From the NCBI GenBank assembly GCA_025558075.1, contig JAHLKF010000019.1, positions 124,001-188,000 on the forward strand: DNA of 64,000 nucleotides. Direction: 5' to 3'. The notes under the pieces are model-generated. The model had not been told where the DNA came from. It saw only the letters and a list, made by a program, of their open reading frames with translations, and ran no database searches. The first letter of the stretch is position 1. Each line of letters begins with the position of its first letter. The translations under genes and the position numbers were made by a program. This document shows, in pieces, positions 36,078 to 58,826 of the stretch. Source of the DNA: Gaertneriomyces semiglobifer (lineage: Eukaryota; Chytridiomycota; Chytridiomycetes; Spizellomycetales; Spizellomycetaceae).

Positions 36078-36605
36078 ATGGCACATCAGGACGCACCCAC
36101 GCTTGCATCAATCGCCACTCTCAACAACCTATCCGAGTCCGATTTCTCGTCGCAGCTTTCTCTTCTTTTTGAGCCCGCCCCACCTCTCACTCAAGCTCTG
36201 ATCGCACAGCGCCCTTTCGAATCATACCTCAGCCTTCTTGACAAAGCCAGTTCCATCATTGAATCTCTACCCGAGGATGAGAAGATTTTCGTCATTAATG
36301 CTCATCCGCGTATAGGTGAGGCAAAGAAGAATCTATCCGCGCTTTCATATAAAGAGCAAGGATATGCGATCCAGACAGCAGAGGATCCGGAGGTTATGGA
36401 ACGTTTGCGAATTCTAAATGAAGCCTATGAAAAGAAGTATGGATTCAAGTTTGTCGTATTTGTGAATGGGAGACCGAAGAAGGAGATAATCCCGGTGTTT
36501 GAAGAGCGATTAAACAATGGAACGAGAGACGGCGAACTGCATACAGGCTTGTCAGACATGATTCTCATTGCGAGAGATAGACTCAAAAAATTATCTAGTC
36601 AGTAG
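36078..36605 (+). CDS. uraD: 2-oxo-4-hydroxy-4-carboxy-5-ureidoimidazoline (OHCU) decarboxylase
   Basis: A single-exon gene of 175 residues starting at MAHQDAPTLASIATLN. It converts OHCU to S-allantoin, the step after urate hydroxylation and HIU hydrolysis. The family signature is clear: VINAHPRIGEAKKNLSALSY followed by KEQ (catalytic His in HPRIG and the S..EQ pair), then LRILNEAYEKKYGFKFVVF, PVFEERLNNGTRDGEL (Arg/Asn/Glu of the active site) and the terminal ARDRLKKL. The C terminus SSQ is not a peroxisomal PTS1 signal. It lies tail to tail with xanthine dehydrogenase (stop codons about 130 bases apart) and is the first gene of the purine cluster. Paired GATA motifs lie upstream, and the last codons take part in a tandem duplication. 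Confidence 0.9.
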   Translation: MAHQDAPTLASIATLNNLSESDFSSQLSLLFEPAPPLTQALIAQRPFESYLSLLDKASSIIESLPEDEKIFVINAHPRIGEAKKNLSALSYKEQGYAIQTAEDPEVMERLRILNEAYEKKYGFKFVVFVNGRPKKEIIPVFEERLNNGTRDGELHTGLSDMILIARDRLKKLSSQ

Positions 36606-36709
36606 CTATTCCATATGTCAAACTATCAAAGTGGGACTATATAGACTCAAAAAATCAGCTAGCCAGTAGCTATTAGCCATATGTCAAACTAACAAATTGG
36701 GACTATATA
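36580..36709 (+). repeat. Imperfect 64/66-bp tandem duplication at the 3' end of uraD
   Basis: The segment 36580-36643 (gactcaaaaaattatctagt ... gggactatata) is repeated at 36644-36709 with a few substitutions and a 2-base difference. The first copy contains the last codons and stop of uraD; the second copy lies in the 3' region between uraD and xanthine dehydrogenase. Confidence 0.85.
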
Positions 36710-36736
36710 CAAATGTGAGGCACCGAAATACGTGAA

Positions 36737-39700
36737 TTAGGCAGGCACCGCCCACGGCTTGCCATCGATTGCAAAGTCCTTTGCAAGCGCGGTATCCTTT
36801 CCACCACAGGCCAGCAAGATGCGCTCACTTGTGGCTGGTGAATCCATTCTAAAGTATCCTGCCTCGCCATACTCAGCTCGGGCACTCTTGATTGCTTCTC
36901 GCAAAGCAAAGAACACGGATGCTCCAAGGAAGAGCGGTGGCTCACCAACGGCTTTGGAGGAGTGGATGGCACGTTTGTTGGCGACACCTGAAAGGAAACT
37001 CACTCGGAAGTCGACAGGAATATCACGGAACCCCGGGATTTTATAGTTGCCCGGCCCACGAGTAATAAGGAAGCCCGTGTTGGGGTTCAGCAGAGGCTCC
37101 TCCAAAGTGGCCCATCCCATCCCCTGTACAAATGCTCCTTCGATCTGTATAAACTGTAAGCAGTCATCACTTGACAAACATAATCAGTGGCGTAGCTCAC
37201 CTGTCCGATATCCAGAGCTGGGTTGATACTCTTTCCAATGTCCATGACAATATCTGCCCGCAGACAAGTGTGGTCTCCGGTCAGAGTATCCACCTCCACT
37301 TCTGCACAAGCAGCTCCATATGTGAAGTAATTGAACATACGGCCATCGTTGGTTGCCCAATCGTATGACAAGTCCGGCGTTTTATAGAACCCAGTAGCAC
37401 TCAGACTCACACGATCAAAATAGGCCTTCTGAATCATCTGTTCCCACGTCAACGGTGGTTCTATTTTTTCGTATGGTTGAAGGCGCTCTCGGATCTTGGT
37501 GCATGCATCAAGTACAGCCATGCCGTTGAGGTCGGAAGAAACAGAGGCAGCGGTTGCTGAAGTGTTCGGGACCGTTGCTGTTTGGGTCTCAGACAGATGC
37601 ACTTTGGATATCGGAATGCCAAGTGCTTGTGCAGCCACTTGGACCATCTTGGTATGCAAACCCTGGCCCATCTCAGTACCGCCATGAGTTATGAGGACCG
37701 ATCCGTCTGTGTATACGTGCACTAAAGCACCCGCTTGGTTTAGCCAGCGGGCGGTAAATGCAAGACCGAACTTTGTAGGCATCAACGCGATCCCACGCTT
37801 GCGGTACTTGTGCTTGGCGTTGAACTCTTTAACCTCTTGTTGCCGGCGTTTGAACTCACTGGATACAACTAGCTCATCCCACAGCCTCTCCATAAACACG
37901 TCCTCCAACGGCTGTCGGAAGTGGGTCAGCTCGCCCATTTTATAGAGATTGATCCTCCGGATTTCTTCCACACTCTTGCCCAAGTATTCTGCAATGTGAG
38001 TGATGTACTGCTCTGCAATCATCAACCCTTGTGGTCCACCGAATCCTCTGAATGCAGTGTTGGACGCAATGTTCGTTTTCGCCAATCTGCCAGTGACCTT
38101 CATGTTCGGTATTCTATAACAGTTGTCCACGTGCGATACAGCGCGTTCCATGACAGAGCTCGAAAGATCTGCGGAAAACCCGGCGTTGTTGATGAGATCC
38201 ACTTCAAGGTAAACAATTTTGCCCTCATCAGTGAACCCGATTTTGTAGTCACCACGGAAAGGATGACGTTGTCCAGAGACAGCCATATCTTCCTCGCGTG
38301 TGTACATGCAGCGCACGGGGACATGTAACTTGTGGGCTGCTACAGCTAGTGCGCAGGCCAGCGGCACACTTCGCGACTCTTTACCGCCAAAGCCACCACC
38401 CATGCGTTTCACACGACAATTGACCCGGTTCGAAGGTATACCCAGGACTCTTGCCACATACTGCTGCGTTTCCGATGGGTGCTGGGTCGAGGCAAAAATC
38501 TCAATCTCATTGTCTTCTCTCTTCGGAACGACTAGACTAGCCTGCGTCTCTAGGTAAAAGTGCTCTTGAGCACTCATCCTCGCAACACCCGTAACACTAT
38601 GCGTTGCCGCCTCCAAGGGCACATCCGCCTCCCTCTTCAATGGATCATAGCAGCCTGAAGAAATCGTCTTGGTAATATTGAAAAAAGAGTTTGCTTCGAT
38701 GGCATCTTCGATCGTAACGATCACGGGCCTCTTATCCGTGTAGACAACCTTGACCATCCTAGCAGCCTTGCGAGCAACGGTCTCGCTGGTAGCAACCACA
38801 AGACCAATCATCTGCCCAACGTAATGTACACGCTTGGTCGCAAACAGCTCTTCGTCGTGAAAGATGGGTCCGATCATGTTAGGCCCATGCTCAGCATCCT
38901 CGTGAGTAAAGTTCGGAATATCCTCCGCGCCAACGTATCCAAGCACGCCCTCCATAGCGAGCGCCTCGGAGGGATCCACACTTTCGATAGCAGCATTCGC
39001 CTCAGCAGACTGCACAAGGCCGGCGTAGCACTCGTTGGCATACTTTGGTATATCGTCAATGTAAACAGCTTCGCCAGTGACCTGCTTCAATGCGGCCAAG
39101 TGAGGAATGGACGTCCCCACAGCCCCTTCAAGCACCTTCTCCGAGCCTTCCAGAGGCCGCACGTCCTGCTCGTAAAATTGTGTGCCCCGAGCTAAGCCAC
39201 GTTCAATCTCTGTCAACGCCGACTGCTCCTCAGGCTTCACTTCGGCCGCATTTATTTTTCCAGCGACATACAGATAAAACTTGCGAAGAAACGACAAAGC
39301 CAATTGGCGCCGGTACGCAACCTGCCCACCTGGCGTGGAGCTGGACATGACAAAGTCTTTGGAGATGATCGTCTCGCCTAGGCCATCCACAATATCCCGT
39401 TCCCACTTGAGGCCGACGAGACGCTTTGATGCTTCAGTAGCAATTCTGGTGAAAGCGCTGAGACCACCAAAACCGAGAGCAGCGTCCTGGACAACATTGT
39501 TTTCATCCAGGCGAACTCGCATGCAAGAATTAACAATGGCGATATCATCGTGCTTCCTCTTGGACTGCTTGAACGCCAGAGTGTATTCTCCTTTTTGCGT
39601 AAACGGAATAAAGACGCTCTCAACGACTTCGGATGGCTTTAAAGCGGTCCGACGATATCCGACGAAGAATTCCTTCATTGGGATGGTGCGCGAGCCCCCT

Positions 39701-41112
39701 TTAACGCTCGAAACCTTTAACACCGCATCGATTGCCACAAAGACAGGGTTCAGGTCACTGATAGCGCTAGCGGTAACGATATTACCAGCAATGGAGGCAA
39801 CATTCCTAATTTGTGGACCAGCAAAGTACTTGAGGTTGTCCAGACATGCTTTCATGTTTTCAGTCTTGTGGCTTTCGTAGCTGGCAATGAAGCTCTCTAA
39901 ATAATCCTGGAACTTCTTCAATGTGACGCCTGCCCCCATCCAAATGCCGTCATCTGACTCCTCGTACGATGTGATTTCTCTGACATCGCTAGCATTGACC
40001 ATAGTAGGGAAATCAGCCCCTTTCATCCGAACCTCAATGCCTATCTCAGTATTGCCGGTCACAATTTTGGCTTTAGGGTTCGCATCCATTATTGTTTTCA
40101 GCTCCTCCAATGTTGTCGGATGGTACCACGCGCCGTTATCATGTCTAAACATGTAACTGGCCGCTACTTGCTTCAGTGCTGGCGGGAAGGGTAGGTCCCT
40201 AGAAGGATCAAGCGCACGACGGGGTTTCATATCCTCAATATCAGCGGTACCATTCATCACTGAGCACGTTCCATTAGCCTTTTTGGTTGTACATTCAGAC
40301 TTGCTGCAGCCAACTGCGCAGTGGTCATCTTCATCCTCGTGTGATCCATTGATGTTTCCATTACATGCATGTGCATGGCCGTTCGCGTCGCCGTTTGGCT
40401 GACTCTGACATGCATGAGACGTGCCATGGCCGTTCGCGTCGCCGTTCGGTTGACTTTGACATGCATGAGATGTGGCATGACCATTGCACGCTGGAGGGTG
40501 GGGAACAGAAAACTGCTGTGCGCCCTCAATGATTGGACGGTACCCAGTGCAGCGACACAGATTGCCGTCGAACGCTTCCTCAATGTCATGAGGGCTTGGT
40601 TTCTGGTTATTCTGCGTTAACGTGTATAGAGACATGACAATGCCTGGAGTACAGAATCCGCATTGGCTAGCAAAAAGGGTTAATGAACTGTGTAGCTAAG
40701 AGGAGAGCTCCAACGAACCGCCAACCGACCTTCCATGGCTGTAAGCGATAGCTTCCTGGGTCGGATGCGGGTTGGTACTCGTGCCCAATCCTTCAATGGT
40801 GACGACATGTTTGCCCTCAATGGAGCAGGCAAGCGCCAAACATGCGTTGACGCTATTGTGATCGACTCGGCCTTCGCGGTCGTTGTAGCTCGACAGCATC
40901 ACCGTACAAGACCCACATCCTCCCTCACCACATCCCAACTTTGTTCCTGTTAACCCATGGCGACGCAGAAAAGCGATGAGTGTTTCCTGAGGATCTGGAG
41001 GAAAGTCAGAGAAGGGCTTCCCATTGATATAACACTGGAGTTTCCGTCTTTCCGGGAGAATGTCCTCTGGAGGAACCTTTGCTGAAAGCATCCCACCGCA
41101 AAACAACAGCAT
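36737..41112 (-). CDS. XDH: Xanthine dehydrogenase
   Basis: Three exons (41112-40730, 40666-37201, 37144-36737) give about 1,418 residues. It oxidises hypoxanthine to xanthine and xanthine to urate using 2Fe-2S, FAD and molybdopterin. The first iron-sulfur cluster motif is GCGEGGCGSCTV; intron 1 splits SHGSQCGFCTPG, and GNLCRCTGYRPIIEGAQQF forms the second. The FAD domain follows (IVTGNTEIGIEV, RNVASIAGNIVTASAISDL). The Mo domain has MGGGFGGKESR and FRGFGGPQG, carrying the Glu and Arg that mark xanthine dehydrogenases rather than aldehyde oxidases, and VGEPPLFLG with the catalytic Glu. A later in-frame Met at 41091 is an alternative start. Between the Fe-S and FAD domains lies an unusual Cys/His/Asn-rich insert of about 80 residues with a 17-residue direct repeat. 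Its activity needs the sulfurated cofactor made by the MOCOS gene in this cluster. Confidence 0.95.
40374..40475 (-). repeat. Two 51-nt direct repeats inside the xanthine dehydrogenase gene
   Basis: Units 40374-40424 and 40425-40475 are nearly identical and in frame. Each encodes 17 residues of the type GH(A/G)TSHACQSQPNGDAN, followed by a partial copy GHAHACNGN. Confidence 0.85.
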
Positions 41113-41207
41113 CCAACCACTGAAAAGGTGCTGTTTACAAAGAGTAGAAGACCGAGGCGGGTCAGCGCTTTACTCTCTTCCAGCTGCCTGGCACCTGTTA
41201 AACCTGC

Positions 41208-41339
41208 GATAATATATGCTTACCTGTGCTGGGCGGCTCCAATTTTGTTCGAAGTGTGATATATTTACACTCTTGGTGTGTTCCAAACGCGTGGGGTCAA
41301 CTGGTCACTCCACACACAAATATCGCGGAAGAGATAAGG
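41208..41339. promoter_or_regulatory. GATA motifs upstream of xanthine dehydrogenase
   Basis: GATAA lies at 41208-41212 and agataagg at 41332-41339, about 100 and 220 bases upstream of the minus-strand XDH start. They fit the HGATAR consensus of fungal nitrogen-regulatory GATA factors. Short motifs occur by chance; support comes from repetition across the cluster. Confidence 0.35.
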
Positions 41340-41863
41340 GCGGAGAATCATCGTGGGGGAACGCAGAAATACGATATCCAAGACTCCGGGCAGCGGCTGA
41401 ACATTCTTTGAATTGAAGACCGCCTGCCAGCTCGTGCCAAGATCAAGGATCAGCATGCAGCAATCCAAGCATCTGCAGCTGGAACCAGAAACAACAACAT
41501 GAAGTGAACCTAAACTGCGTCTTGTTTTTTCGAGCGGCCGTCCCGGAGCCACTCGACCCTCCACAACCTTTTCCGCCTTCTACATGATGCATGCGCCCCC
41601 GACAACAAGGGGTCGCCCATTAATTAATCTAATTCAAACTGCAGCGAAGCCCTTTGTCGTCGAATGCCTCCGCCAAAGTCCTACGCTCACGTGGCACAGT
41701 CATGAATAGTCAGCGTAGACGGATGAAGGCCTTTGAAGTGGGACATTGACGTTCACATTTTTGAATGAGAAGCCAGCGTTGACGTTCCAAGCCCAATGAA
41801 TGACATATCGTAAACTGGGCAGCGGAGGTTCTCAGCGTATCCTCTCACCAGACTGCGACGCAT

Positions 41864-41871
41864 TTTATAAG
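41864..41871 (+). promoter_or_regulatory. Candidate TATA box of the secreted Cys-rich gene
   Basis: The string tttataag lies 62 bases upstream of the start codon at 41933, a plausible distance for a TATA box. Confidence 0.35.
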
Positions 41872-41932
41872 TGCAGCGCTCACAGCCATGCCTTTACGTA
41901 CGAGTCTATGACTGTCACTCAGGAAACTCAGG

Positions 41933-42333
41933 ATGCACGGTAACTGTTTGATCATGCTAGCCAGCATGGCAGTGTTGCTCTCGATACTGCCAGCGTCGTT
42001 TGCTCGACCCGCGAGTCTCTTGGCTCCCATTGTGCCAAGTCCATCATCAGATATCTACACAGAAACGTGCTCGTATGCGCCAGCTGAGGCAACGTCTACT
42101 GAAGCCACCGCTAGGTGAAAGTCTCATCAGAAGCTGTGTACTTGGATTGTCATGAATTCATGCGAGCTTCTAGATGCGGACCGCCAACTCCATCGGAAAC
42201 CGTCGTGAGTGGCGTAGACGACATATGCTGCCACTGCTGCCTTCACAATTGGGAACCCGAGGAATGTGCTGCCATTCAATGTCTTTGGTGTCCTGCCGAA
42301 TGTTTACCTGGAAACCCGCTTGCACATGAATAA
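41933..42333 (+). CDS. Small secreted cysteine-rich protein
   Basis: Two exons (41933-42114 and 42174-42333; intron gtgaaa..ttctag, phase 2) encode 113 residues. The N terminus has a signal peptide: MHGNCLIMLASMAVLLSILP with probable cleavage after SFA. The mature part begins with Pro/Ser/Thr-rich sequence and has a cluster of cysteines (ICCHCCLHNW, ECAAIQCLWCPAEC) that could form disulfides. No known domain is recognised. It is embedded in the purine cluster between xanthine dehydrogenase and urate hydroxylase, but no functional link can be read from the sequence; it could be a cell-wall or secreted effector-like protein. Confidence 0.55.
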
Positions 42334-42494
42334 ATCCCGCTCGTCCCTTCGCTCGCAAGGCCCCGCCATCTTATATACAATTCTGCTTCATCATACCTTT
42401 GAATTCACAGCCGTCTCACATGCCTATCCATAAGATCTTGGTTAGTATCAGCAAAACACAGCAACACCTTTCCTGCAGCAAAGTTCTCGCGGAG

Positions 42495-42530
42495 GTGAGA
42501 TAAGTTTTGAAAGTGTTCCTTATCTCACCG
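42495..42530. promoter_or_regulatory. Perfect inverted repeat of GATA motifs upstream of hpxO
   Basis: The 11-bp arm ggtgagataag (42495-42505) is exactly matched in inverse by cttatctcacc (42520-42530) across a 14-bp spacer; outer arms cgcgg (42489-42493) and ccgcg (42536-42540) extend the symmetry. Each arm contains AGATAAG. It lies about 150-180 bases upstream of the hpxO start, which also has a TATA-like tatatat at 42599-42605. A site for a GATA-factor dimer or pair, controlling hpxO by nitrogen source, is inferred. Confidence 0.6.
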
Positions 42531-42677
42531 GACACCGCGTTTGCTCCACAAACATGCCACCAGCAAAGTGTGAATTCCTGTGAGCCGAGTAAAGGCGATA
42601 TATATCCAGGTGCTAGAAAGAACAGGTTCATGTCCTAGAACAGCAATCCCGACCTCAATATACAATCGTAACTTGTC

Positions 42678-43856
42678 ATGGTCAAGATCATTGTCATTGG
42701 CGCTGGTATTGGAGGCCTCACCGCTTCCATTGCCCTCCATCAAGCCCTACCAGGAGCTGATATCCAAGTTTACGAGCGAGTGCCCGAACTGCTACCCATT
42801 GGCGCCGCCATTTCCGTGTGGAGTAATGGCGTCAAAGTGTTGAAGAAATTGGGACTGGGCGACCAGATCGAGGGATATGCCGGTGACATGAGGAGGATGG
42901 CGTACCATACAAAGGATGGAAAGCAGCTGTGCGATTTTGATCTGTCACCTCTTTACGAACAAGTTAAACAGCGTGCATGTCCAATTGCCCGTACCAATCT
43001 GCAGAAACTGCTGCTCGACGGCGCCAAGGCAAACGGAATCACAGTACATCTTGATAAACGGGGAATGGACTACACTGAATCAGACCAGAACATTACGGTC
43101 GAGTTTGAAGACGGTACATCTGAAACTGGTGATCTTCTTGTCATCGCCGAAGGCACGCATTCCAGGCTCCGCGATAAAATTGTTGGGCGACCGATCAAGC
43201 GTCAGTACGTCGGATACACTAACTACAACGGCGCCGTTCCTATTACACCCGACCTACACAACGATGCTACCACTTGGAATCAATTTGTCGGCGATGGGAA
43301 ACGCGTGAGCATGATGCCCATGGGTGACAACAAGTTCTACTTCTTCTTTGACGTCCCTGGAGAAATTGTTTCCAGCACACCGGACCAGTATCGTCAGGAA
43401 CTAGCTGAGCAATTTAAGGGATGGGCAGAGCCTGTGCAGAACCTAATTAAAAACCTGGATCCGACCACCGTCGCGCGTGTTCCGATTCATGACGTTGAGG
43501 AGATCGAAACCTTTCACAAGGGCCGTGCTGTCATGATGGGTGATGCGGCGCATGGTACGGCGCCTGATCTTGGGCAAGGCGGTTGTCAAGCAATGGAGGA
43601 TGCTTGGGTACTCGCACAAGCACTGAAAACCCACGGTGCGGATTTTACCGCTGCGTTCAAACAGTACGACGAGCGTAGAGTGCGGCGAACGGTAGACCTT
43701 GTATCTCGTGCCCGAAAGAGAGCTGATATGATACACGGTAAGCACATGCCGGACACGTTGGCGTGGTATGATGAGTTAGCAAAGGAAACAGGCGTAGGCA
43801 TTATGGAAGGGATGGCGAAAACCATTATGGGTGCACCAGCAGAACTAGATGCGTAG
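42678..43856 (+). CDS. hpxO: FAD-dependent urate hydroxylase (HpxO type)
   Basis: A single-exon gene of 392 residues. It should hydroxylate urate to 5-hydroxyisourate with NADH and O2, a step performed by a cofactor-free uricase in most eukaryotes. Group A flavin-monooxygenase motifs are present: GAGIGG at residues 8-13, the DG-type segment LLVIAEGTHSRLRD, and GDAAHGTAPDLGQGG from residue 288. The closest match I recognise is bacterial HpxO of Klebsiella: PIGAAISVWSNGVK, RMAYHTKDG, FVGDGKRVSMMPM and FYFFFDVPG are shared in order, as is the C-terminal HGKHMPDTLAWYDELAKETG. Arg209 and Tyr221 here correspond to Arg204 and Tyr216 of the Klebsiella enzyme, residues tied to urate binding and catalysis. 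No intron, no peroxisomal targeting tail. Absence of introns and the bacterial resemblance fit horizontal transfer. Confidence 0.85.
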   Translation: MVKIIVIGAGIGGLTASIALHQALPGADIQVYERVPELLPIGAAISVWSNGVKVLKKLGLGDQIEGYAGDMRRMAYHTKDGKQLCDFDLSPLYEQVKQRACPIARTNLQKLLLDGAKANGITVHLDKRGMDYTESDQNITVEFEDGTSETGDLLVIAEGTHSRLRDKIVGRPIKRQYVGYTNYNGAVPITPDLHNDATTWNQFVGDGKRVSMMPMGDNKFYFFFDVPGEIVSSTPDQYRQELAEQFKGWAEPVQNLIKNLDPTTVARVPIHDVEEIETFHKGRAVMMGDAAHGTAPDLGQGGCQAMEDAWVLAQALKTHGADFTAAFKQYDERRVRRTVDLVSRARKRADMIHGKHMPDTLAWYDELAKETGVGIMEGMAKTIMGAPAELDA

Positions 43857-43911: not shown

Positions 43912-44964
43912 CTACTTCTTCACAGGAAACTCTTTTCTCCAGAACTGTGCGATTTCTTCTCTGGTGGCTACCCAGACGTCCTTGCTTTTGACGTACTCCA
44001 TGAACCTTTGCAGCGCTGCCGCACGGCCAGGCTTTCCAACCAGGCGACAGTGTAAGCCGATGGACATCATTTTCGGAGTTCCTGCTTCGCCCTCTTCGTA
44101 GAGCACGTCAAACGCGTCCTTGAGGTACGTGAAGAAACCGTCTGGAGAGCTGAAACCCGGCGGGACGCAGTACTTCATGTCGTTCTACGTCAAATTGAAA
44201 GGTTGCCATCAATCACTATGCAATGCTTACAAATTCGTTCCGCTGGGCCATACCTGATCAAGTGTATAAGGTATCACCAAGTGTTCATGTCCATCGACTG
44301 TAACCCAGTATGGGAGGTCATCATTGTACGCATCTGAGTCGTACAAGAGGTCCAAGCCCAGCTTCTTGAACATTCGGATAACCACTTCTCTGCTCTGCGG
44401 ACCTATTCTGCCAGTATACCACCCTCGAGGCGGGACGCCTGTAGCTTTGGTGATGGCTTCAATTGCCTTGACGCAGTGCTCTGCTTCCGGTACGCCTTCT
44501 GCATCGTAATCAATCCACCGGTAGTTATGACTACACACTTCATGTCCTTCCTCATGCATCTGGGTCACTGGGTCTGGACAGAGCTCAACAGCGCGCCCCA
44601 CAGCGAAGCAGGTGAACTTGAATCCATATCGACGGAAGAGGCGCAAGAGGCGGTGAACACCGGCACGAGTACCGTACTCGTACTGCGTCTCCATGTTCAT
44701 ATCTCGCCCGGGACGCGGCCGTCCGCCCGGTGTTTCGTTGAGAAAGACTTCTGAAGCCGGGTCACCGTTCAGCACGGTGTTTTCGCCGCCCTCTTCATAA
44801 TTTACAACGAAGGACAGCGCTATTTTGGCACCGTTCGGCCAAGAGAAGCGAGGGTACTGCCCACCATACCCAACAAGGTCACGGGTATTGATGTCCTTGA
44901 GTTTTGTCACCTCGTATTTGATTTCATCCTTCTCTTGTTCCGGCGTCGGAAGGTTAGTTAACAT
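43912..44964 (-). CDS. puuE: PuuE-type allantoinase (polysaccharide-deacetylase fold)
   Basis: Two exons (44964-44254 and 44184-43912; intron gtatgg..acgtag, phase 0) give 327 residues. It hydrolyses allantoin to allantoate. The sequence follows the bacterial PuuE family, not the metal-dependent amidohydrolase allantoinase (yeast DAL1): NTRDLVGYGGQYP, NYEEGGENTVLNGDPASE, MNMETQYEYGTRAGVHRLLR, HEEGHEVCSHNYRWIDY, and YTLDQ|NDMKYCVPPGF spanning the intron. The NodB-like core keeps its His and Glu residues. No signal peptide or PTS1 (end PVKK) is present, so it is probably cytosolic. It is convergent with hpxO (stop codons about 55 bases apart) and divergent from the MOCOS gene. Confidence 0.9.
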
Positions 44965-45456
44965 CTTGAAAACTGGGTTCCTTCCTAAGCACCGTTCCGT
45001 TGCCTAAGGGCCACTTTTCACGAGCGCAGATGGATTGTAGAAGAGGATATCGGGTAGAAGCTCTGTTCGCAACCACTGATTAATTATCGTCGTTGGGCGT
45101 CTGTCAATCAAAAAACCGTCGACTGCTGAGCAGTGTCACTTTTTTTGGCTCGGTTATAGCATCGTCAGCGGGCAGACGAGAGGTTGGATTGGAAGGTTGC
45201 AACAAGCTCGTGAAGAAGCCTTTGAGACGGACGATACAAATAGATCAGATATCGGTGGCCCCGTCGTCCAAATTTCCTTATCTCTCGTCAACAACTTCAG
45301 CGCCTCACAAACAAAGGCGCGAGTTTACCCCCACGCGCAGTCGCATGAATTGAACAGCGTTGCGAGAAGCGACGACGTTTAAGAGAAGGGGTTTCCCTGA
45401 AAGTGAATCAGCTGGTTACCGAGCAACATCGTGTAGATGCTGGTGGTAGACCCTAT
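44965..45456. promoter_or_regulatory. Shared divergent promoter, puuE / MOCOS
   Basis: This 492-base region separates the two start codons. It contains cttatct (inverse AGATAAG) at 45277-45283 and two GATATC strings. No gene is recognised; the GTG-initiated extension of the MOCOS frame reaches into it but lacks an ATG before 45457. Confidence 0.4.
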
Positions 45457-47913
45457 ATGTCTCCGGTGCAATGGTTAAAAGGTTATCTTACGAGACCCCC
45501 AGATGACTCATGTACCGTTCAACATCCAACGGACAAAGAAGAACCACCGACGAGCTTTCAGACGCTAAAAGCAGCCTTTCTTGAAGAGTATGGCAGTTCC
45601 TATAACGCCAATGTAGAACAATTACGTGACGCGGAGTATCCGCAATTGCGTTCCCAGGTGTATCTGGACCATGCCGGAGCGACTCCGTATCCTGCGTCCA
45701 TCGTCCAGAAGCATACCGCAAACCTGCTATCCGGGACTTTGTTTGGCAACCCGCACTCATCGGGAAGTCTATCTTCGACCGCCACGTCGGAACGCATCAG
45801 TGCAGTGAGAGGCAAGGTACTGCGATACTTCAATGCAGACCCCGAACGATATGCCGTAGTTTTTACCAGTGGCGCTACGGCCGCTGCTCGGATTGTTGGA
45901 GACGGGATTAACTGGGGTACTGAGAATTGCATAGGCGAGTTCTGGTACCTGCGAGAAAGCCACACGAGTGTGGTCGGTATTCGCGGCATCGTGGAGGAGC
46001 ATGGAGGACGTTCAAAGGCAGTGACGGCACAAGGCATTGAGAGTTACCTGACTCTTAACACTCCACCTTCTGATATTGATCACTCTGGTTCATTCGCTGG
46101 CGATGCAACCACTCTGTTCGCCTATCCGGCACAATGTAACGCTACCGGCGTCCGTTATCCCCTCAATTGGATTAACAGATTTCGTCAACTGCATGAGCGG
46201 ACCGCTACAACTCACGACTCTGAGTGCATGCCTTCGGGTCGGCGAACATTTTTGACGCTCCTCGATGCCGCTTCATATCTCTCAACATCATCTCTGGACC
46301 TTTCGGAGCATCCAGCGGATTTCACGATTTTGTCGTTTTATAAGGTGTTTGGGTTCCCCACTGGCGTGGGTGCGCTTATAGTTCGTCGCGACATTGCTCA
46401 CCTGCTGAAGAAAAAGTACTTTGGTGGAGGCACGGTAGCGGCCTTGACGGTTGCTGAGAAACAGCCAGGATGGGTGATTCCGCGGGAAGATATCAGTTCG
46501 CGGCTAGAGGATGGGACCCTACCTTTTCTGGAAATCCTTGCCCTTGAGCATGGATTTGAATTTATTGAGGGGATGGGCGGGATGGCGACCATAGGACGCC
46601 ATGTCTTGAGTCTGCGGGATTATACATTTGGAATGACGGGCAAGTTGAAGCATGCCACTGGTCACGCACTGTGTACTGTTTACACGACAACGTGCACCTC
46701 ACGGGATATCGGACAGGGACCTATCATCAACTTCAATTTACAAGCAGCCGATGGATGTCCAATAAGCACGACCTCCGTACTACGGCTGGCAGGCATACAT
46801 AACATTCACCTACGGGCTGGCTGTTTCTGCAATCCTGGTGCTTGTCAGGCGAACTTGTCATTATCTTCAGAAGACGTACAGCGAAATTACGCGACCCACG
46901 GTGTCGTTTGTGGTGGCGAGCACGATGTGGTTGAGGGCAAAGCTACGGGCAGCCTTCGCATATCCTTTGGAGCTTGTTCGACGTTTGAGGACTGCTACAA
47001 ATGGCTTACATTCTTGACGAACTACTACTTGGGACCCGCCACAATGTCTGATACAGACCCGGGACAGCAGGGGGTTGGTGATGTGACTTGCAAGAATGAT
47101 TTGCAGATCGCAAAAATCATTCTATATCCCATCAAAGGGTGCGCTGGATATGCCGTCAATTGGTGGCCGTTAAGTGGGAGCGGCCTGTTTTTGGATAGGG
47201 AATGGATGCTGGTGGATTCCACTGGAAGGGCACTCACTCTAAAGCGATGTCCCAAATTGGCACTCATCAGCATTCTCGAGGTGGATCTTGCGCTTGAATA
47301 CATCACTGTGCGCGCAGGGAAAGAGCGGCCCCTCAAGATCGGTTTTACCCTATCCTCACCGTTGACGCCTCACGGTTCAACAACCATCTGCAGCACGCGG
47401 AAGGACAGCGTTCCGTATTTGAATACGCTGCCAAATGAGATACATGCGTACTTTTCTGCATTTTTGGACACCGATTGTCGACTGGTGCGACGTTCGGAAA
47501 CTGATTCTCCTTCTAAATCCTTTGCGAACAACTCGCACTTCCTGATTACATCTACGTCGTCATTTAGGGATCTCCTCTCACGCATGACGCCAACGGATGC
47601 TAGCGATGTTTCCCATGAGCGTCTTCGCGCCAATATCATAATTGCTTCTCAAATCCCTTACGTGGAGGACACGTTTGTGTCGAAATCGGTTCTTGTCAAC
47701 GAGGACATTGAGCTTCGGGGATCTGAGTTGTGTACTCGTTGTCAAGTCATCAATGTGCATCCGGAGAACGCAAATGTCAGCAGAGAACCGTACAGCACGA
47801 TGGCCAAGTATCGGAATATTAAAGGCAGAGGAGTTTGTTTCGGCGTGCTGGCCACGCTCGTGCGTGGGAAGGGACGTATACTGACAGTGGGTGATCGAAT
47901 CCGCGTAGGGTAG
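45457..47913 (+). CDS. MOCOS: Molybdenum cofactor sulfurase
   Basis: An intronless gene of 818 residues from the first ATG (MSPVQWLKGY); the frame is open upstream but without Met. It transfers sulfur from L-cysteine onto the molybdenum cofactor, the modification that xanthine dehydrogenase requires. The N-terminal NifS-like, PLP-dependent domain has VYLDHAGATPYP, NPHS, FTSGATAA and SFYKVFGFPTGVGAL with the PLP lysine at residue 296. A persulfide-type cysteine lies in RAGCFCNPGAC. The C-terminal half has the MOSC N-terminal beta-barrel (KIILYPIKGCAGYAV, FLDREWMLVD) and the MOSC domain (ELCTRCQVINVHPEN). It is the only gene in the cluster that supplies a cofactor step and makes the grouping with XDH functionally coherent. 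Confidence 0.93.
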   Translation: MSPVQWLKGYLTRPPDDSCTVQHPTDKEEPPTSFQTLKAAFLEEYGSSYNANVEQLRDAEYPQLRSQVYLDHAGATPYPASIVQKHTANLLSGTLFGNPHSSGSLSSTATSERISAVRGKVLRYFNADPERYAVVFTSGATAAARIVGDGINWGTENCIGEFWYLRESHTSVVGIRGIVEEHGGRSKAVTAQGIESYLTLNTPPSDIDHSGSFAGDATTLFAYPAQCNATGVRYPLNWINRFRQLHERTATTHDSECMPSGRRTFLTLLDAASYLSTSSLDLSEHPADFTILSFYKVFGFPTGVGALIVRRDIAHLLKKKYFGGGTVAALTVAEKQPGWVIPREDISSRLEDGTLPFLEILALEHGFEFIEGMGGMATIGRHVLSLRDYTFGMTGKLKHATGHALCTVYTTTCTSRDIGQGPIINFNLQAADGCPISTTSVLRLAGIHNIHLRAGCFCNPGACQANLSLSSEDVQRNYATHGVVCGGEHDVVEGKATGSLRISFGACSTFEDCYKWLTFLTNYYLGPATMSDTDPGQQGVGDVTCKNDLQIAKIILYPIKGCAGYAVNWWPLSGSGLFLDREWMLVDSTGRALTLKRCPKLALISILEVDLALEYITVRAGKERPLKIGFTLSSPLTPHGSTTICSTRKDSVPYLNTLPNEIHAYFSAFLDTDCRLVRRSETDSPSKSFANNSHFLITSTSSFRDLLSRMTPTDASDVSHERLRANIIIASQIPYVEDTFVSKSVLVNEDIELRGSELCTRCQVINVHPENANVSREPYSTMAKYRNIKGRGVCFGVLATLVRGKGRILTVGDRIRVG

Positions 47914-51977: not shown

Positions 51978-53195
51978 TTACGTCCGACGCTTCTTAGCAG
52001 CGGGCGGCGGCGTTGCTTCATCGTCAGTGATAGCTTCATCGCTTATCATTTCCACGCACTCCTTCATGAATACATAGCATCTCGAATTCGCTCTAATATC
52101 AACAAACTGCGCTCTCGTCCTCTGGCGTAACAGCTCCAACTTCTTCCTCAGTACCGCCAACCGATCTTGTGGATTGTTCTTGATCAAATAACACGACATC
52201 ATGAACTCTATCGGACTCAGTTTCGTGGGATACGTAAAGACGATTGGGTATTGGTCGCGAAGTGAAGCGAGGATTTTGAGAATCGCATCAATAAGGTTGC
52301 GGTCGGACCTTGACAACGGAACAGCTTGCTCAAGCGCCCGGGACATATGGGTTGCCGAAGGCATAGTTGGCGGTGCTTGAGTGACAATGATGAAGGCTTG
52401 TAGAATATTGGTAAAGTCACGTTTCCGTCGATAATCTACGGATTTCATCAAGCTTTCATACTTCTAAAGGAACAAACATGATTGCTTCAGCAAGGTGACC
52501 AGGATCCAGCAATAGACCACTACGTCGTATCAACTTACCACTTGCATCTCCCTTACAAATGCGGCAACTGGTCCGTTATTGGCATACAGCTTTTCCGCGG
52601 TGGTCAGTGCTACTCCTAGCTGTACTCTCCTGAAGATTTCAATCTCTTGGTCGATAGTCAAGTCTCGGTATTCAATACATGTTATTTGCTTATTATTAAA
52701 TTCTTGTCTCTGTCGTTCGGTGAGCACAGCTCTCTTTCGCCCGTTCGTGGCAGAGTACCAAACCCGTTTTCCAGTCGTCGAGTCAATCAAAGGTATCTCA
52801 CCGGCCATAAACCGGGTAACGCTTGTCAAACGCTGCTTTCCATCAATGGCTACACGCAAATCCGCCCCATCTTCCGCTTGACGAATTGAAAAAATAACAG
52901 GCGGTACATAAAAGTTCTTCATGATGCTATCAATCAGGTGCCCTTGCTTAGTAGACGCCCACACGACGTCTCTCTGATAATCCGCATTAAGGTCAATCAT
53001 TCCATTTCCGACGTATTCGGCGACCGCGGAATATGTCAACATGTACGGCTCAGGCTTTCTCAGTCCTGATTCCTCGGTAGATTCTGCGTAGCTTTGATCA
53101 GCGGCATAGTCAGTATCTTCATCATCTACATACGCTTCTTCGTCTGTATCATAGAGTTCTACTTTGGCATCGTTGGTCCTCCTTGAACGAGGCAT
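51978..53195 (-). CDS. DUF262-domain protein
   Basis: Two exons (53195-52539 and 52463-51978; intron gtaagt..tttag, phase 0) give 380 residues from MPRSRRTNDAKVEL. After an acidic N terminus the DUF262 (ParB/sulfiredoxin-like fold) domain is clear: YSAVAEYVGNGMIDLNADYQ, RDVVWASTKQGHLIDSIMKN, PPVIFSI and the signature AIDGKQRLTSVTRFM (family (I/V)DGQQRLTT). RRVQLGVALTTAEK completes it. The second exon is helical and ends in the basic tail PPPAAKKRRT, a probable nuclear localisation signal. In bacteria the domain forms the nucleotide-handling half of GmrSD-type systems; the role in fungi is unknown. Confidence 0.75.
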
Positions 53196-53402
53196 GGTTC
53201 GCGAACTTTCAAATGACGTGCCGGTCAGATGGTGTGATACAAGCTTTCTCAAGATATGCCGTCGGCAACGCACACACACTGCGAAGTAAACTGGTAAATA
53301 AATGAGACGTGCAACTGGACAGTGCTGCAGAATTTGAGCAGGTTATCAATAGATGCAACCATATCAATAAGCCTCATAACTACAATAATCAGAACAGGAT
53401 GG

Positions 53403-53654
53403 ATGAGCATGTCCAAGCATCAGTTGGAAAGACTGGTAGATGTCGTCGAGATGGATTTTCAACGCAACATCAGTTCGGTTCTTAGTCTTGTCCTCGACGA
53501 AGGGGATCGTTACCTTAACATGGGTCTAGCATACGGACAGGAAGACTATGCTCAGTTTGAAAGAATAACGAGAGAACCACTTCAACAGAGGAAGATTCAT
53601 CCTAAACAGTTCAGCATTAGATCCCTGTGGGATTTAGCGCAAAGTGTCCCATAA
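53403..53654 (+). CDS. Hypothetical small helical protein
   Basis: An 83-residue frame from the first in-frame ATG (MSMSKHQLERLVDVVEMDFQ). The N-terminal half is a predicted amphipathic helix, followed by a Gln/Arg-rich region. Composition looks coding, but there is no family match and no intron to support it. It lies divergently from the DUF262 gene, 207 bases away. Confidence 0.4.
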   Translation: MSMSKHQLERLVDVVEMDFQRNISSVLSLVLDEGDRYLNMGLAYGQEDYAQFERITREPLQQRKIHPKQFSIRSLWDLAQSVP

Positions 53655-54210: not shown

Positions 54211-54771
54211 TTATAGCACGCTTGTTACGGGGTATTTACGACAATCAGTGCCCTCCAACTGCTGCTTGGTGGTCTCGTGCAGTGTAGAATAGCCCTCAAC
54301 AAGTCTCGGGCGATTAGTGTTCTGCACTCGACCTACCTCGCAAACGCACTGATATTGATTGTCGTAAATAACCCTGCGCGCGGTGCTATTCGAAATCGCC
54401 GGTGCGGATCTTCTCGCATCTATCTTGAAATTGTCATCATCCCACTCTACATCATCCGGCCCCTCCGTTCCGAGGCTATCAGTCACCCCTGGGATGCGTA
54501 CGTGATAGGATGGACGAATAATGGGGCGAGGACGCGTGTGATCAAAGTCAGGGTCATCCCACTCAAGGTCATCGCAGCATTCAGTGCCCAAGGGATAGTG
54601 GACTCCTTTCACTACCTCTCCAGTGACGCTGTTTCCACGCCCGTTATGCTCACTTCCACTGTCGGGACCAGATGTCCGCGTCTCCGCATCCTCCCCTCCA
54701 CCTGATCCCTTCCCTTCCTCGCCCATCCCACTATCTCCCAACGTCATTTTCTGTGTTCCGGCCAGGATCAT
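54211..54771 (-). CDS. Hypothetical acidic protein with duplicated segment
   Basis: A 186-residue frame from the Met at 54771 (MILAGTQKMTLGDSG). It is Gly/Glu/Asp-rich and hydrophilic. Two related segments occur: GTECCDDLEWDDPDFD and GTEGPDDVEWDDDNFK, about 35 residues apart, suggesting an internal duplication. No domain is recognised. A possible gtaggt splice donor follows CVCEV, so the C-terminal 45 residues are uncertain. Confidence 0.4.
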   Translation of the reverse strand: MILAGTQKMTLGDSGMGEEGKGSGGGEDAETRTSGPDSGSEHNGRGNSVTGEVVKGVHYPLGTECCDDLEWDDPDFDHTRPRPIIRPSYHVRIPGVTDSLGTEGPDDVEWDDDNFKIDARRSAPAISNSTARRVIYDNQYQCVCEVGRVQNTNRPRLVEGYSTLHETTKQQLEGTDCRKYPVTSVL

Positions 54772-54864
54772 CCTGATCCTCTCTATCGTTCAAAGATCCA
54801 CGGCGTTCCAAATGATATTGGCGATGAGCTGAAATGAATAGAACTAGCGGCAAATTACCGGAGC

Positions 54865-54888
54865 ATGACAATGACAATGACAATGACA
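54865..54888 (+). repeat. (atgaca)n hexanucleotide microsatellite
   Basis: Four uninterrupted-looking hexamer units of atgaca, at the beginning of a small open frame. Confidence 0.8.
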
Positions 54889-55161
54889 TATACACCAGCA
54901 GCAAGAAAACGTAGTAGAAGGATATTGTTGATATTCTTATGTATTCTGTTACTGGTGGTGAGCGTGATATTGATAGGGAGGAGAAGGATGAATTACCAAT
55001 TTCTGTATGTTTTAGCGCCTTCGGGTATTCGATGGATCCACTGTTCTCGCTCCGCTTGCCATCTGAGCTTGAAATTGAGATGCCCTTGGTCGCCGAGAAA
55101 AGGGGATAGTTTGAGACACATTTTGGGTATCAATAACGAAAATAGGGTGTCGAGGGCATGA
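54865..55161 (+). CDS. Possible small membrane protein with repeated start codons
   Basis: A 98-residue frame begins with four tandem atgaca units (54865-54888), encoding Met-Thr four times and so offering several in-frame starts. A basic patch RKRSRR precedes a single strong membrane helix, ILLIFLCILLLVVSVILIG, then GRRR. The remainder has no pattern. It may be a genuine single-pass peptide or a chance frame on a microsatellite. Confidence 0.25.
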   Translation: MTMTMTMTYTPAARKRSRRILLIFLCILLLVVSVILIGRRRMNYQFLYVLAPSGIRWIHCSRSACHLSLKLRCPWSPRKGDSLRHILGINNENRVSRA

Positions 55162-55350
55162 GAGTTCACCGCCCCTTTTTCCCACCAAATTTGCCACCCC
55201 CGCCCGACGTTGCCCTAGCTGACACTTGCATGTACCTGTACAATATATATTATGATACTCCAGTGACACTAGTAACACAATTCATTCGCCTCGGTAACCG
55301 CTAACCAAACCACCGGGTGACCGGACCCCGATTAACATACAAAAGTTCCT

Positions 55351-56758
55351 TCAGTACATAATTGTGTTGCGCTCGACCATCCTAGGAATTTTCCGCAATA
55401 ACGGATCATCCTTGGCGACGCTCCACAGGTACCCATCTGTAATATGCACCTATGAGCTTTGGTTAAACGATGGAAACATGCGTTAGCCACATACCCAGAT
55501 CTGCTTCAGTCATGGTCGCTAGCCATTCCAAGCCAGTTTCCTTGCTGAGTTCTTTGGCCCGTTTGACAACAACCTGCCCTGCATCCACCGCGGCTGCCCT
55601 CACAACGTATGCCTCTTCTCTGGTCAAGCGCGATCCCTCCACCACTTTGGGTAGATTCGCTCCTTCCCCTTGCGCAATCCTGTTCCTCAGCGCAATAGAC
55701 TCCTTGCCCCATTGTTGCAATTTGGCGAGCTTGCACTCTGATAGGTCAACAATGCCTAGGTCAACCAGCATTGTTGGAATCACGTTATCCACAAACATTG
55801 GGAGCACAGAAGGGTCCGGAACCGCCGGGGAAGAGGTCTCCAGCTTGGACAAGCGATTGTGCAGGGCGAATAGGAGAAAGAATGCTTTCTTAAAGATATA
55901 CACAGGCTGATTGCCAAGTACAGGTGACATATCCGCAAAACCTGGTATGACAGTGACAAGCTACATGTGGAGACCATCAGCCAAATGATACAGAATATAT
56001 TAAATGTAATCAGTACCTACCCGTTCCACAAAGTAGTCTGCAGCTGCAGTGTCGCTCTTCGTCTTCTTTATATCATCGGCCTCCTTTAAAGCCTCCAAAA
56101 CGAAAACGCCCAAGTTGGCATAGCCCCTCTGAAGAAGACGTTCACCAGTTTCATTGCATGCTCTGACAACCAACTCAATCGCCTCATTGATGTCGCCCCC
56201 TCTGATCCCAACCACTAACCCTGGAATCGATTCATGCGGCTTCTCTTCATGCAGTGTCACTCCCAGTAGTTCCGCAACAGTAGCGGCATCCAGGCTCTTC
56301 AATCCTTTTGCTGACAAGGCGTTAGAACCCGAGGTAGCATCCCCGCCTTGCCCACCACCGATGTACAATCCAAATAGCAACTTGAGGACATTTTGATAGG
56401 CTCCTTGTCCTGTGGCTTTATGGAATGGTGCACGGTAGCCAGAGAGTGTGTTGAGGAGGGCGAGCACCGACAAAAAGTTCACCTCGGTCACAAGATTGGG
56501 AAATATGAGAGGAAAAGCTACGCCATGCTGACCCTTCAACCTGTCAAAGTTCTCTTTGGATAGATTTTTGAGCAACCGATCGACCGCTTCAATGGAGATC
56601 TGCAATGTCGGTGATTGTCAACATTAACCACCCAGAGAAACTCAACACGAGATACCACTAACCTTGATGTTGGCCTCTTCTCGAACTTTGCTCGCGGCGG
56701 CTCGCGCGGTAGAGATGAAGGTGCCAGTAGCAGGAAACGGACATGAGTTAGGTGCCAT
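55351..56758 (-). CDS. QNG1: Queuosine-salvage (QNG1/DUF2419) family protein
   Basis: Four exons (56758-56663, 56599-56021, 55960-55495, 55436-55351) give 408 residues with frame kept at all joins. The start reads MAPNSCPFPATGTFISTARA. Matches to the DUF2419 family include IKISIEAVDRLLKNLS, EVNFLSVLALLNTLSGYR (family L.F.L.LDALNF.FW), LPMFVDNVIPTMLVDLGIV (family ..FADYRVPQ.L..LGVL), REEAYVVRAAAVDAGQVVV (family E.EIRA..V.A.E.I) and the terminal DGYLW and ERNTIMY, the last two supplied by the final exon. The family releases queuine from queuosine nucleotide for reuse in tRNA. The sequence lacks the usual FW after LN, so it is a divergent member and substrate is less certain. Confidence 0.6.
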
Positions 56759-56878
56759 TGTGATGTAGGTTCAGCGTATCGGCAGGGTAAGTTTCCTCAA
56801 GGTGTGCCCGAGTTTTGTACCATCGCAGTTAGGAGCACGTAATTTTGCGAGAGTCATCACATTATTCAATCGTAAGAG

Positions 56879-57532
56879 ATGACTGGAGCACCTCCCAAGG
56901 CAATTAAAGCGGATCCTCTAACTCGAGAAGGGTTCGCACCATACGGAGATGTGATCTGTGCTTTGGCACCGTCAAGTTCAGCTAGCGCGAACCAAGGCAC
57001 CGCCCAGCGATTCAATCATGTTGGTATAGTACTCACTACTCTTTCTCCTTCCCGATGAACGAATCCACAATGTGAACGTTGAACTATAGCGAGGATAACC
57101 AATCTCCGTAGCGACACCAATCCGGCTCAACCAAATCTATGCGTTTTCCGTTGTGTACCGACCCCAAGTCTGCCCTTCAAAATGAAGCTCTTGGAGAGGC
57201 ACAAGTACTCATCTCAGTTCTTTGTTCCTATGACCCTTCCGCAGCCAGGGTCTGAATGGAATGGGGAAAAAGCCTATCTAGTCATCGTCTGCGGGAATGA
57301 TCCGGTGACGGACCAACCGGATTATTCCACCCTGAAAGCGTTTACTGCAACCTCAACCCAGGGAGTAAACTACAGAGAAGGATGCTGGCATCACCCTATG
57401 ATTGCCTTGGATAGAGTGACAGACTTTTGCGTCTTGGTTCATGAGCGCCGGGAGCAGTGCGAAGTTGCAGACGAGGATTGCGAAGAAGTCTTCTTGAGTG
57501 CGGAAAACTACGTAGATATCATAGTGGACTAA
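56879..57532 (+). CDS. DAL3: Ureidoglycolate lyase
   Basis: Two exons (56879-57023 and 57090-57532; intron gtatag..ctatag, phase 1) give 195 residues. It splits ureidoglycolate into glyoxylate and urea, the last ring-derived step. The N-terminal exon has IKADPLTREGFAPYGDVI and GTAQRFNHV. The second has NLCVFRCVPTPSLPFKMK, LLERHKYSSQFFVPM, YLVIVCGN, GVNYREGCWHHPMIALD (the conserved His-His pair) and DFCVLVHERRE, the full pattern of the family in order. It is tail to tail with allantoicase (23 bases between stops), whose product is its substrate. No peroxisomal targeting tail (ends IIVD). Confidence 0.93.
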
Positions 57533-57555
57533 CTGTAGTCTATACGGTCTATCTA

Positions 57556-58826
57556 TCATACAGAGAGAGTACCTAATATCCTCAAGCGAGCGATACCCCC
57601 ATCTGGAAACATCGTCACTCTAACATGTGAGACTTTGTTGTTCTTGCTCTTCTCGTCAACGGCAAACCGCACTTGGGCGTGAGGCCCGAGCTTTGTTCGT
57701 TGCACCAGCGGGAACCATTGAATCTCAGAACTGTTAGATTCGGCTTGCACGGAATCGGCAGGCGCGATATATGCACCCTCAACGATTGCCGACTCTGGAA
57801 AGTTACCCTTGAAGAGATGCGTGTCGATTTCAACTTCTGATACTTTACCAGTGTGGCCAAGTGATATGATCGCCCAATCTTTGCCTATTAGGTTGAATAA
57901 TGCGTTTAGTTTAGTTGACGCTACGGAACGGCATGCCGAGAGTGAAACGAACCAGGCATGACAAGCTGCTTAGTCTGCGGATCCGGTACGTATACTCTCG
58001 GTCTCTCAGGATTGCGAGCGGTTTCCCATCCTCCGGCCATAGTCTTTGAGCGACCAAAGGCAATAAGGTTGCGTGGATGTCCGTAATGCGCGTTGCTGAA
58101 GCTGACAGCCCGACCACTATTGAGAGTAAGACGCCATCCGGAGTGAGCAGATTTTTTGAGCATAGTGAGCATGTATGCCTTGACTCACCCGTTCTCTACA
58201 TGAGCCAAATCCACAATCTGGTCATTAGGCACCACTGACCAGTCCTTGCTCACCAATCCAAAGGTTCTGAACCGAGCAATACCTCCATCCGGATACAGAT
58301 TGACGCGCAGATGGGTGTACCGCTGTTTCGAGTCAGGTAACCTGATGTAGTGATATCTGGACTCCTCATATCCGGGCGCCAAAGGCGTGTAGGGCACGAG
58401 TTCTTCCCACTTATCCGAACCAACAGCCTCAGCCGCTTTCAGCTCTGCCTCAGTACACGAACTGCCCATCTCACATCTTCTCTTCAATGGTAACTGTTTA
58501 GCGAGCGTAGCAGCCTGGATGGACACCCCGGGGACCTGATTCCCAGTGAAATATCCGGTATCCACTTCAAATCCTTCAATGGTTCCAGGAAGCCCAAGTT
58601 TGATGATGCACCAATCATGACCCGCAGTGCGCTTACGGCGGGTTTCCCAACCGTCCATTTCTTTGCCGAATTCGGTGAAGGCATTGATATCGAAGATAGG
58701 AGGATCGGGCTTGAGAAAGTTCTCGGCAACTGCAAAAAAGTCGTCCGTAGCGAAGAGGATCTCACTGCCTACGGACGCGCACGACAGGTTTGTCAACGTG
58801 CTGAAAGGGTTTTCTTGGACGGTCAT
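57556..58826 (-). CDS. DAL2: Allantoicase
   Basis: Three exons (58826-58189, 58116-57953, 57884-57556) give 376 residues; the start is the Met of MTVQENPFSTLTNLSCA. It hydrolyses allantoate to ureidoglycolate and urea. The duplicated allantoicase repeat is visible twice. The first copy has LSCASVGSEILFATDDFFA, MDGWETRRKRTAGHDWCIIK, LGLPGTIEGFEVDT and HLRVNLYPDGGIARFRTFG. The second has GGRAVSFSNAHYGHPRNLI, MAGGWETAR, GKDWAIISLGHTGKVSEVEI and HVRVTMFPDGGIARLRILG. The introns fall inside the second repeat. The start codon has a gataag motif 80 bases upstream. Together with its convergent neighbour it forms a two-gene allantoate block about 9 kb from the main purine cluster. Confidence 0.95.

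Follow-up and report, generated by a model that had tools for sequence, protein, structure and literature searches.

In fungi, the urate step of purine catabolism is known to be run by uricase; Aspergillus nidulans and Cryptococcus neoformans use this enzyme and not the FAD-dependent urate hydroxylase HpxO, and their overall xanthine-to-urea chemistry is that of the chytrid pathway described below. Saccharomyces reportedly carries a cluster of allantoin genes, the DAL cluster described by Wong and Wolfe in 2005. None of the 17 purine genes of A. nidulans is clustered (PMC5611559), and those of C. neoformans, in which Dal1 performs the allantoin step, are dispersed (PMC3646786). As to the urate step, PMC4562309 describes HpxO as known from relatively few bacteria and urate oxidase (Uox) as the eukaryotic form; the H2O2 formed by Uox is named there as the reason why eukaryotes confine uricolysis to organelles, and HpxO yields water. 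A 64,000-nucleotide stretch of the genome of Gaertneriomyces semiglobifer, a spizellomycetalean chytrid, contains a cluster of seven purine catabolism genes that likely specifies a route from hypoxanthine and xanthine to urea, in which a predicted HpxO-type enzyme would oxidize urate in a peroxide-free, NAD(P)H-dependent reaction.

Layout and gene content of the cluster

The stretch analyzed (the window) covers positions 124001-188000 of the 383,683-bp contig C19, in an assembly of 66 contigs and 20,861,921 bases. All seven genes are intact (Table 1): their introns follow the GT-AG rule, the spliced models lack internal stops, and each has a Pfam or NCBIfam family consistent with its name. An earlier note on this DNA had placed the same genes at these positions and had recognized a zoosporic fungus, correctly in both respects. 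Five of the genes (uraD, XDH, hpxO, puuE, and MOCOS) adjoin one another on alternating strands in a first block of 11.8 kb; the ureidoglycolate lyase (DAL3-type) and allantoicase (DAL2-type) genes form a second block after a gap of 8965 bp (~9.0 kb). The three convergent pairs noticed earlier are all present and closely spaced (131 bp for uraD/XDH, 55 bp for hpxO/puuE, and 23 bp for lyase/allantoicase), and the divergent pairs XDH/hpxO and puuE/MOCOS complete the strand alternation. In a simple model that places seven independent points uniformly in 20.86 Mb, the probability that all fall inside 22,748 bp is ~1e-17; it is ~1e-15 under the same model if any 7 of 10 pathway genes are allowed. 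As a group of neighboring, non-homologous genes that serve a single pathway and lie closer together than chance would predict, the locus is a eukaryotic metabolic gene cluster, and the claim that genes of one pathway lie within 23 kb is upheld.

By homology, the pathway steps can be tentatively assigned to the cluster enzymes. MOCOS, with its NifS-like and MOSC domains, would add the terminal sulfur to the molybdenum cofactor of XDH, which would convert hypoxanthine and xanthine to urate with reduction of NAD+. HpxO would then turn urate into 5-hydroxyisourate (HIU) using FAD, NAD(P)H, and O2, with the release of water and not of peroxide. An unlinked HIU hydrolase would produce 2-oxo-4-hydroxy-4-carboxy-5-ureidoimidazoline (OHCU), to be converted to (S)-allantoin by UraD; PuuE would open (S)-allantoin to allantoate; and allantoicase and ureidoglycolate lyase would generate glyoxylate and two molecules of urea, the latter being split by an unlinked urease. 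The label "urate-to-urea" used in the earlier note fits the end of this predicted route, where urea is formed along with glyoxylate, but not its start, which lies upstream of urate, at XDH. The genes could be co-expressed through the candidate promoters shared by the two divergent pairs.

The XDH protein carries the Pfam domain set of xanthine dehydrogenases, and, judged by the scores of its main exon against PDB chains (1046 bits for mammalian XDH and 833 bits for aldehyde oxidase), it is closer to xanthine dehydrogenase than to aldehyde oxidase. The two NCBIfam models of split XDH subunits gave 734.5 and 345.5 bits with this exon, both below their cut-offs. XDH is the only match to MoCoBD_1 (molybdopterin domain) in the assembly and the sole molybdenum hydroxylase found. 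MOCOS, which consists of Aminotran_5, MOSC_N, and MOSC domains, is one of two MOSC genes found in the assembly, the other one (on contig C5) having MOSC_N and MOSC domains in those pieces that were read. Since it is a sulfurase whose single evident client, XDH, is encoded three genes away, its place in the cluster has a functional reason, and the emphasis that the earlier note put on it was sensible for a genome with one molybdenum hydroxylase. The second exon of XDH begins with a repetitive linker of ~60 residues, rich in His, Cys, Asn, and Gly, between the 2Fe-2S and FAD domains; the aligned mammalian XDH has a shorter Cys-containing stretch at this place.

Table 1. Genes of the purine catabolism cluster and candidate promoter regions, in window coordinates
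Feature	Position	Strand	Details
uraD (OHCU decarboxylase)	36078..36605	+	175 aa, single exon
XDH (xanthine dehydrogenase)	36737..41112	-	1418 aa, exons 41112-40730, 40666-37201, 37144-36737
XDH/hpxO divergent intergenic region, candidate shared promoter	41113..42677	.	1565 bp
hpxO (FAD-dependent urate hydroxylase, predicted)	42678..43856	+	392 aa, intronless
puuE (cofactor-independent allantoinase, predicted)	43912..44964	-	exons 44964-44254, 44184-43912
puuE/MOCOS divergent intergenic region, candidate shared promoter	44965..45456	.	492 bp
MOCOS (molybdenum cofactor sulfurase)	45457..47913	+	818 aa, single exon
Ureidoglycolate lyase (DAL3 type)	56879..57532	+	exons 56879-57023, 57090-57532
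Allantoicase (DAL2 type)	57556..58826	-	376 aa, exons 58826-58189, 58116-57953, 57884-57556

Between the two blocks lie an LSM-domain gene, a gene for a GmrSD_N domain protein (52530-53342, minus strand; the family is named for a bacterial restriction endonuclease), a weak match to queuosine salvage proteins (55463-55960, minus strand; PF10343, 19.1 bits, below the cut-off of 25), and frames without a confident family. Of the earlier description of two halves separated by 9 kb of housekeeping genes, the distance stands, and the contents are those just listed; the split may mark an incomplete or broken cluster. On the other side of the second block, the allantoicase gene adjoins a gene for a basic helix-loop-helix (INO4-like) transcription factor with Q/H/P-rich tracts (59335-60576, minus strand), for which a regulatory link to the cluster is possible, and past it is a frame of the plasma-membrane choline transporter family (PF04515; 62026-62862, plus strand). 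An exon of a dynein heavy chain (DHC_N2; 31617-32960, minus strand) fits a flagellated fungus.

The urate and allantoin steps

More notable than the clustering itself is that hpxO and puuE, which the earlier note named but did not remark upon, appear to stand in for uricase and the DAL1 allantoinase. Because the Pfam families of both proteins are broad, the names were assigned from their matches in NCBIfam and the PDB. HpxO exceeds the cut-off of the NF033623 equivalog (527.5 bits over residues 5-389, cut-off 500), the next family reaching 216.9 bits, and its best PDB matches, aligned nearly end to end, are the Klebsiella HpxO structures 3rp6 and 3rp8. Its residues R209, Y221, and D297 align with R204, Y216, and D293 of K. 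pneumoniae HpxO, which we take to be substrate-site and catalytic residues; structure 3rp8 carries Q at position 204. The gene has one match in the whole assembly. Taken together, these matches suggest that a close homolog of bacterial HpxO is responsible for the urate step. The protein could instead be a paralogous flavin monooxygenase that acts on some other aromatic or heterocyclic substrate, with urate oxidized by an unrecognized enzyme, as might be expected in a large flavoprotein family with many substrates (60 NCBIfam families matched HpxO). Such a paralog is quite improbable, however, given the distance in score to the next family, the conserved key residues, the location of hpxO between XDH and puuE, and the presence of uraD and a HIU hydrolase in a genome with no detected uricase.

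No uricase candidate was found in the 20.9-Mb assembly with PF01014, nor with TIGR03383 at E<=10, whereas the same profile search recovered the exon-split HIU hydrolase and urease genes, a fair control for this negative result. Similarly, TIGR03178 revealed no DAL1-type allantoinase in the assembly, the only weak match being inside the urease locus. The urate and allantoin steps are therefore assigned here to enzymes non-homologous to uricase and Dal1, respectively. PuuE matches PDB entry 3cl6 (PuuE) with 339.9 bits, and TIGR03212 matches nothing in the assembly but the two puuE exons. Over the aligned part (93% of the query), it is 100% identical to the deposited G. semiglobifer protein P0121. 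The latter begins with MDAGYG, which corresponds to an 18-base stretch (45701-45684) antisense inside MOCOS, and then continues from 44895; the model presented here starts at 44964, so that the two differ in their first exons, that of P0121 representing a possible antisense overlap with MOCOS. No identical G. semiglobifer HpxO is among the protein matches listed, although PuuE and allantoicase from this organism are, so hpxO may be unannotated or mis-modeled in the public gene set.

Of the remaining three enzymes, UraD matches PF09349 with 143.7 bits (cut-off 24), ureidoglycolate lyase matches PF04115 with 162.3 bits (cut-off 23), and allantoicase matches TIGR02961 with 388.2 bits (cut-off 277.9). 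Allantoicase is 100% identical to the deposited G. semiglobifer protein P0241 over 100% of the query, and its closest named relatives are eukaryotic. One deposited protein from Siphonaria sp. JEL0065 (P0281, marked UNVERIFIED_CONTAM) combines PF09349 and PF03561, a possible chytrid fusion of allantoicase with OHCU decarboxylase, two steps of the pathway.

Among the transporter families tried (PF00860, TIGR00801, and PF02133), no candidate for the uptake of urate or allantoin was recognized. TIGR00801 had no match in the assembly at E<=1, and PF02133, which we take to be the FUR/DAL4 family, was also absent; the only PF00860 purine permease found, encoded on contig C4, has no NCBIfam match and is presumably AzgA-like. 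Since no urate or allantoin uptake system was recognized, hypoxanthine or internal purines are the likelier substrates. Judged by eye, none of the seven cluster proteins ends in an SKL-like tripeptide, and the C-terminus of the HIU hydrolase reads YRGT. These ends are in line with, but do not prove, a cytosolic location of the predicted activities; because some HIU hydrolases use an N-terminal peroxisomal signal or none, missing SKL-like ends are weak evidence on location.

Relatives and origin of the cluster

The protein search with HpxO gave 2137 matches, the best 120 of which were listed. These include homologs from Thoreauomyces, Spizellomyces 'palustris' (70% identity), Fimicolochytrium, and Geranomyces, at 68-71% identity to the G. 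semiglobifer protein, and one from the basidiomycete Amylostereum (52%), the other names among the matches listed being bacterial, with up to 55% identity; more fungal HpxO proteins may lie beyond the listed portion. Two of the four other chytrid homologs were scanned, and both were above the NF033623 cut-off (P0002, 549.8 bits; P0003, 527.1 bits). Two trees were built from the query and subsets of the listed matches (69 and 50 sequences, those with no label taken as bacterial). The five chytrid proteins form a single clade in both, with support of 98 in the first tree and, next to 44 other sequences and Amylostereum, with bootstrap and Shimodaira-Hasegawa-like approximate likelihood ratio test (SH-aLRT) values of 100/97 in the second. 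Amylostereum joins the chytrid proteins at 100/99, on a branch of 1.08, and its NF033623 score of 486.9 falls below the cut-off of 500; because of this long branch and low score, a single origin of fungal HpxO does not follow.

The clade also bears on the authenticity of hpxO. An intronless gene whose nearest named relatives outside chytrids are, among those shown, bacterial except for one basidiomycete might come from bacterial contamination or an assembly artefact. This explanation is hardly credible and was rejected, as the gene lies inside a 383,683-bp contig, flanked by intron-bearing genes, and groups with homologs from four other chytrids.

PuuE is spread more widely, with listed matches in numerous chytrid genera, among them Batrachochytrium, Chytriomyces, Synchytrium, and Gonapodya. 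In a tree of the query, 35 named chytrid sequences, and 36 others, many of them unnamed, that were assumed to be bacterial, taken from the 120 matches listed, the 36 chytrid proteins fall on one side of a branch with support of 98. Fourteen unnamed sequences ranked between those of named chytrids (P0129 to P0165) were left out, as was every second sequence further down the list, so this clean split holds for the chosen set. Powellomyces hirtus (P0124) is in the PuuE list and not among the 120 listed matches of HpxO or allantoicase, which could reflect pathway loss, gaps in gene models, or the limits of the lists. PuuE seems to have been present in chytrids for longer, and HpxO was likely gained later, close to the origin of Spizellomycetales, with uricase presumably lost, in G. 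semiglobifer at the least. HpxO probably came into the spizellomycetalean line from a bacterium and took the place of uricase.

A bacterial source for the entire cluster is another matter. PuuE is known from Pseudomonas, and bacteria have purine operons. The demonstration of HpxO in Klebsiella (PMC4562309) would likewise be compatible with whole-operon transfer. Against such a transfer stand the eukaryotic relatives of allantoicase, the single-chain animal form that is the best match of XDH among solved structures, the many chytrid genera with PuuE on one side of a well-supported branch, the introns in 4 of the 7 genes, and the alternating strands. It is very improbable and was rejected.

Linkage in relatives was compared for three of the seven genes, hpxO, puuE, and allantoicase, the Geranomyces entries being unusable as they pool several members. 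In S. 'palustris', HpxO (P0002, g07640), PuuE (P0125, g07642), and allantoicase (P0242), each represented by a single-member entry, are all assigned to contigs with the identical size of 67,598 bp, from which a shared contig is inferred. In Thoreauomyces, the three genes are on contigs of 48,153, 76,915, and 10,978 bp; hpxO and puuE are apart, but in this fragmented assembly the 10,978-bp contig is too short to decide linkage. Linkage is thus seen in 2 of the 4 readable genomes, one being that of G. semiglobifer itself and Thoreauomyces being readable only in part. Since the linked genomes are those of Gaertneriomyces and Spizellomyces, the latter presumably also a member of Spizellomycetaceae, the clustering probably arose or persisted within this family.

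Several observations weigh against the reading of the locus as a hypoxanthine/xanthine-to-urea cluster with HpxO-type urate oxidation. In Fimicolochytrium jonesii, hpxO, puuE, and allantoicase lie on three contigs (276,136, 786,645, and 516,216 bp), so the clustering has not been preserved across the whole order. The genes for HIU hydrolase (contig C14, three exon matches), urease (contig C23), and the only PF00860 permease are all unlinked to the cluster, which makes the earlier terms "near-complete" and "self-contained" too strong, also with MOCOS included. The palindrome TCGG-N6-CCGA, which we take to be the site pattern of UaY-type regulators, has no occurrence in the window, the looser CGG-N6-CCG having 12 across its whole length. 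Among the enzyme assignments, PuuE, although aligned with TIGR03212 over its full length (2-296 of 297), stays under the cut-off (384.9 and 424.6 bits, respectively); neither UraD nor ureidoglycolate lyase reaches the cut-offs of its best-matching NCBIfam models, which for UraD are decarboxylase models; and the top NCBIfam match of the XDH main exon is a full-length aldehyde oxidase subfamily model, at 928 bits, far below its cut-off of 1912. The first HpxO tree pairs G. semiglobifer not with Spizellomyces but with Fimicolochytrium (SH-aLRT 90), a pairing that crosses the families Spizellomycetaceae and Powellomycetaceae. Finally, with the completeness of the assembly not established, the absence of uricase rests on an exon-by-exon search, and, with the uricase search covering G. 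semiglobifer alone, its replacement is deduced from the general eukaryotic pattern.

The dispersal in F. jonesii, the unlinked genes for HIU hydrolase, urease, and permease, and the missing UaY-type sites would all fit physical closeness with no regulated unit behind it, i.e., a neutral leftover of rearrangement in a pathway that would work the same if dispersed. Such neutral linkage is rather unlikely in view of the chance estimate for seven genes in 23 kb and of the three-gene linkage retained in S. 'palustris' despite its HpxO being only 70% identical. If the locus is indeed a functional cluster, a more far-reaching scenario can be offered tentatively, at somewhat less than even confidence: a eukaryote would have given up the peroxisomal uricase, which forms peroxide, in favor of a urate hydroxylase of bacterial type that depends on NAD(P)H, and uricolysis would have left the peroxisome. 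The cluster would have formed around this swap: a shared divergent promoter would serve both XDH, the source of NADH, and HpxO, its consumer, and the sulfurase that activates XDH would lie beside them. The chytrids that have HpxO, of which there are several and at least one lacks a detectable uricase, provide a natural experiment on why eukaryotes hold urate oxidation in peroxisomes.

Comparison with described purine gene systems

What appears to be new here is the gene content of a fungal purine cluster and the occurrence of an enzyme family known from bacteria in a host where it was not expected. In the open-licence literature, represented mostly by titles and the openings of abstracts, no report of HpxO from a fungus, or of clustered purine genes in a chytrid, was found; the enzyme called "urate hydroxylase" in PMC3508617 is listed under EC 1.7.3.3, with no indication that it is HpxO.

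With respect to gene order, the earlier contrast with the often dispersed purine genes of fungi is borne out by A. nidulans and C. neoformans, both of which differ from the chytrid in this regard; C. neoformans differs also in its DAL1-type allantoinase (PMC5611559 and PMC3646786). The Klebsiella pathway (PDB entries 3rp6, 3rp7, and 3rp8) is similar in having a urate hydroxylase of the same family with the same key residues and, according to PMC4562309, in having urah and urad but no uox. The chytrid system differs from it in belonging to a eukaryote, in having separate genes that alternate in strand, in the use of PuuE and allantoicase downstream, and in a single-chain XDH accompanied by MOCOS.

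The Saccharomyces DAL cluster resembles the chytrid one in being a fungal purine cluster with DAL2 and DAL3, the only genes common to both, in a genome without urate oxidase. It differs in that it starts at allantoin, includes the DAL4 permease and DAL1 allantoinase, and belongs to a lineage that has lost the use of urate (PMC5611559 and PMC3646786). In the chytrid cluster, neither DAL1 nor DAL4 is found linked to DAL2 and DAL3 (TIGR03178, PF02133), and, unlike in DAL, the route still runs through urate, as XDH, MOCOS, HpxO, UraD, and PuuE are included. The chytrid locus would thus add a fungal purine cluster of different content, with the genes linked in some relatives and dispersed in others of the same order, through which the question of why genes of primary metabolism cluster, described as open in PMC5611559, becomes directly testable. 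If the proposed exchange of uricase for HpxO did take place, its parallel would be the yeast DAL cluster, whose origin likewise went along with the loss of urate oxidase, with the difference that in the chytrid the use of urate has been kept.

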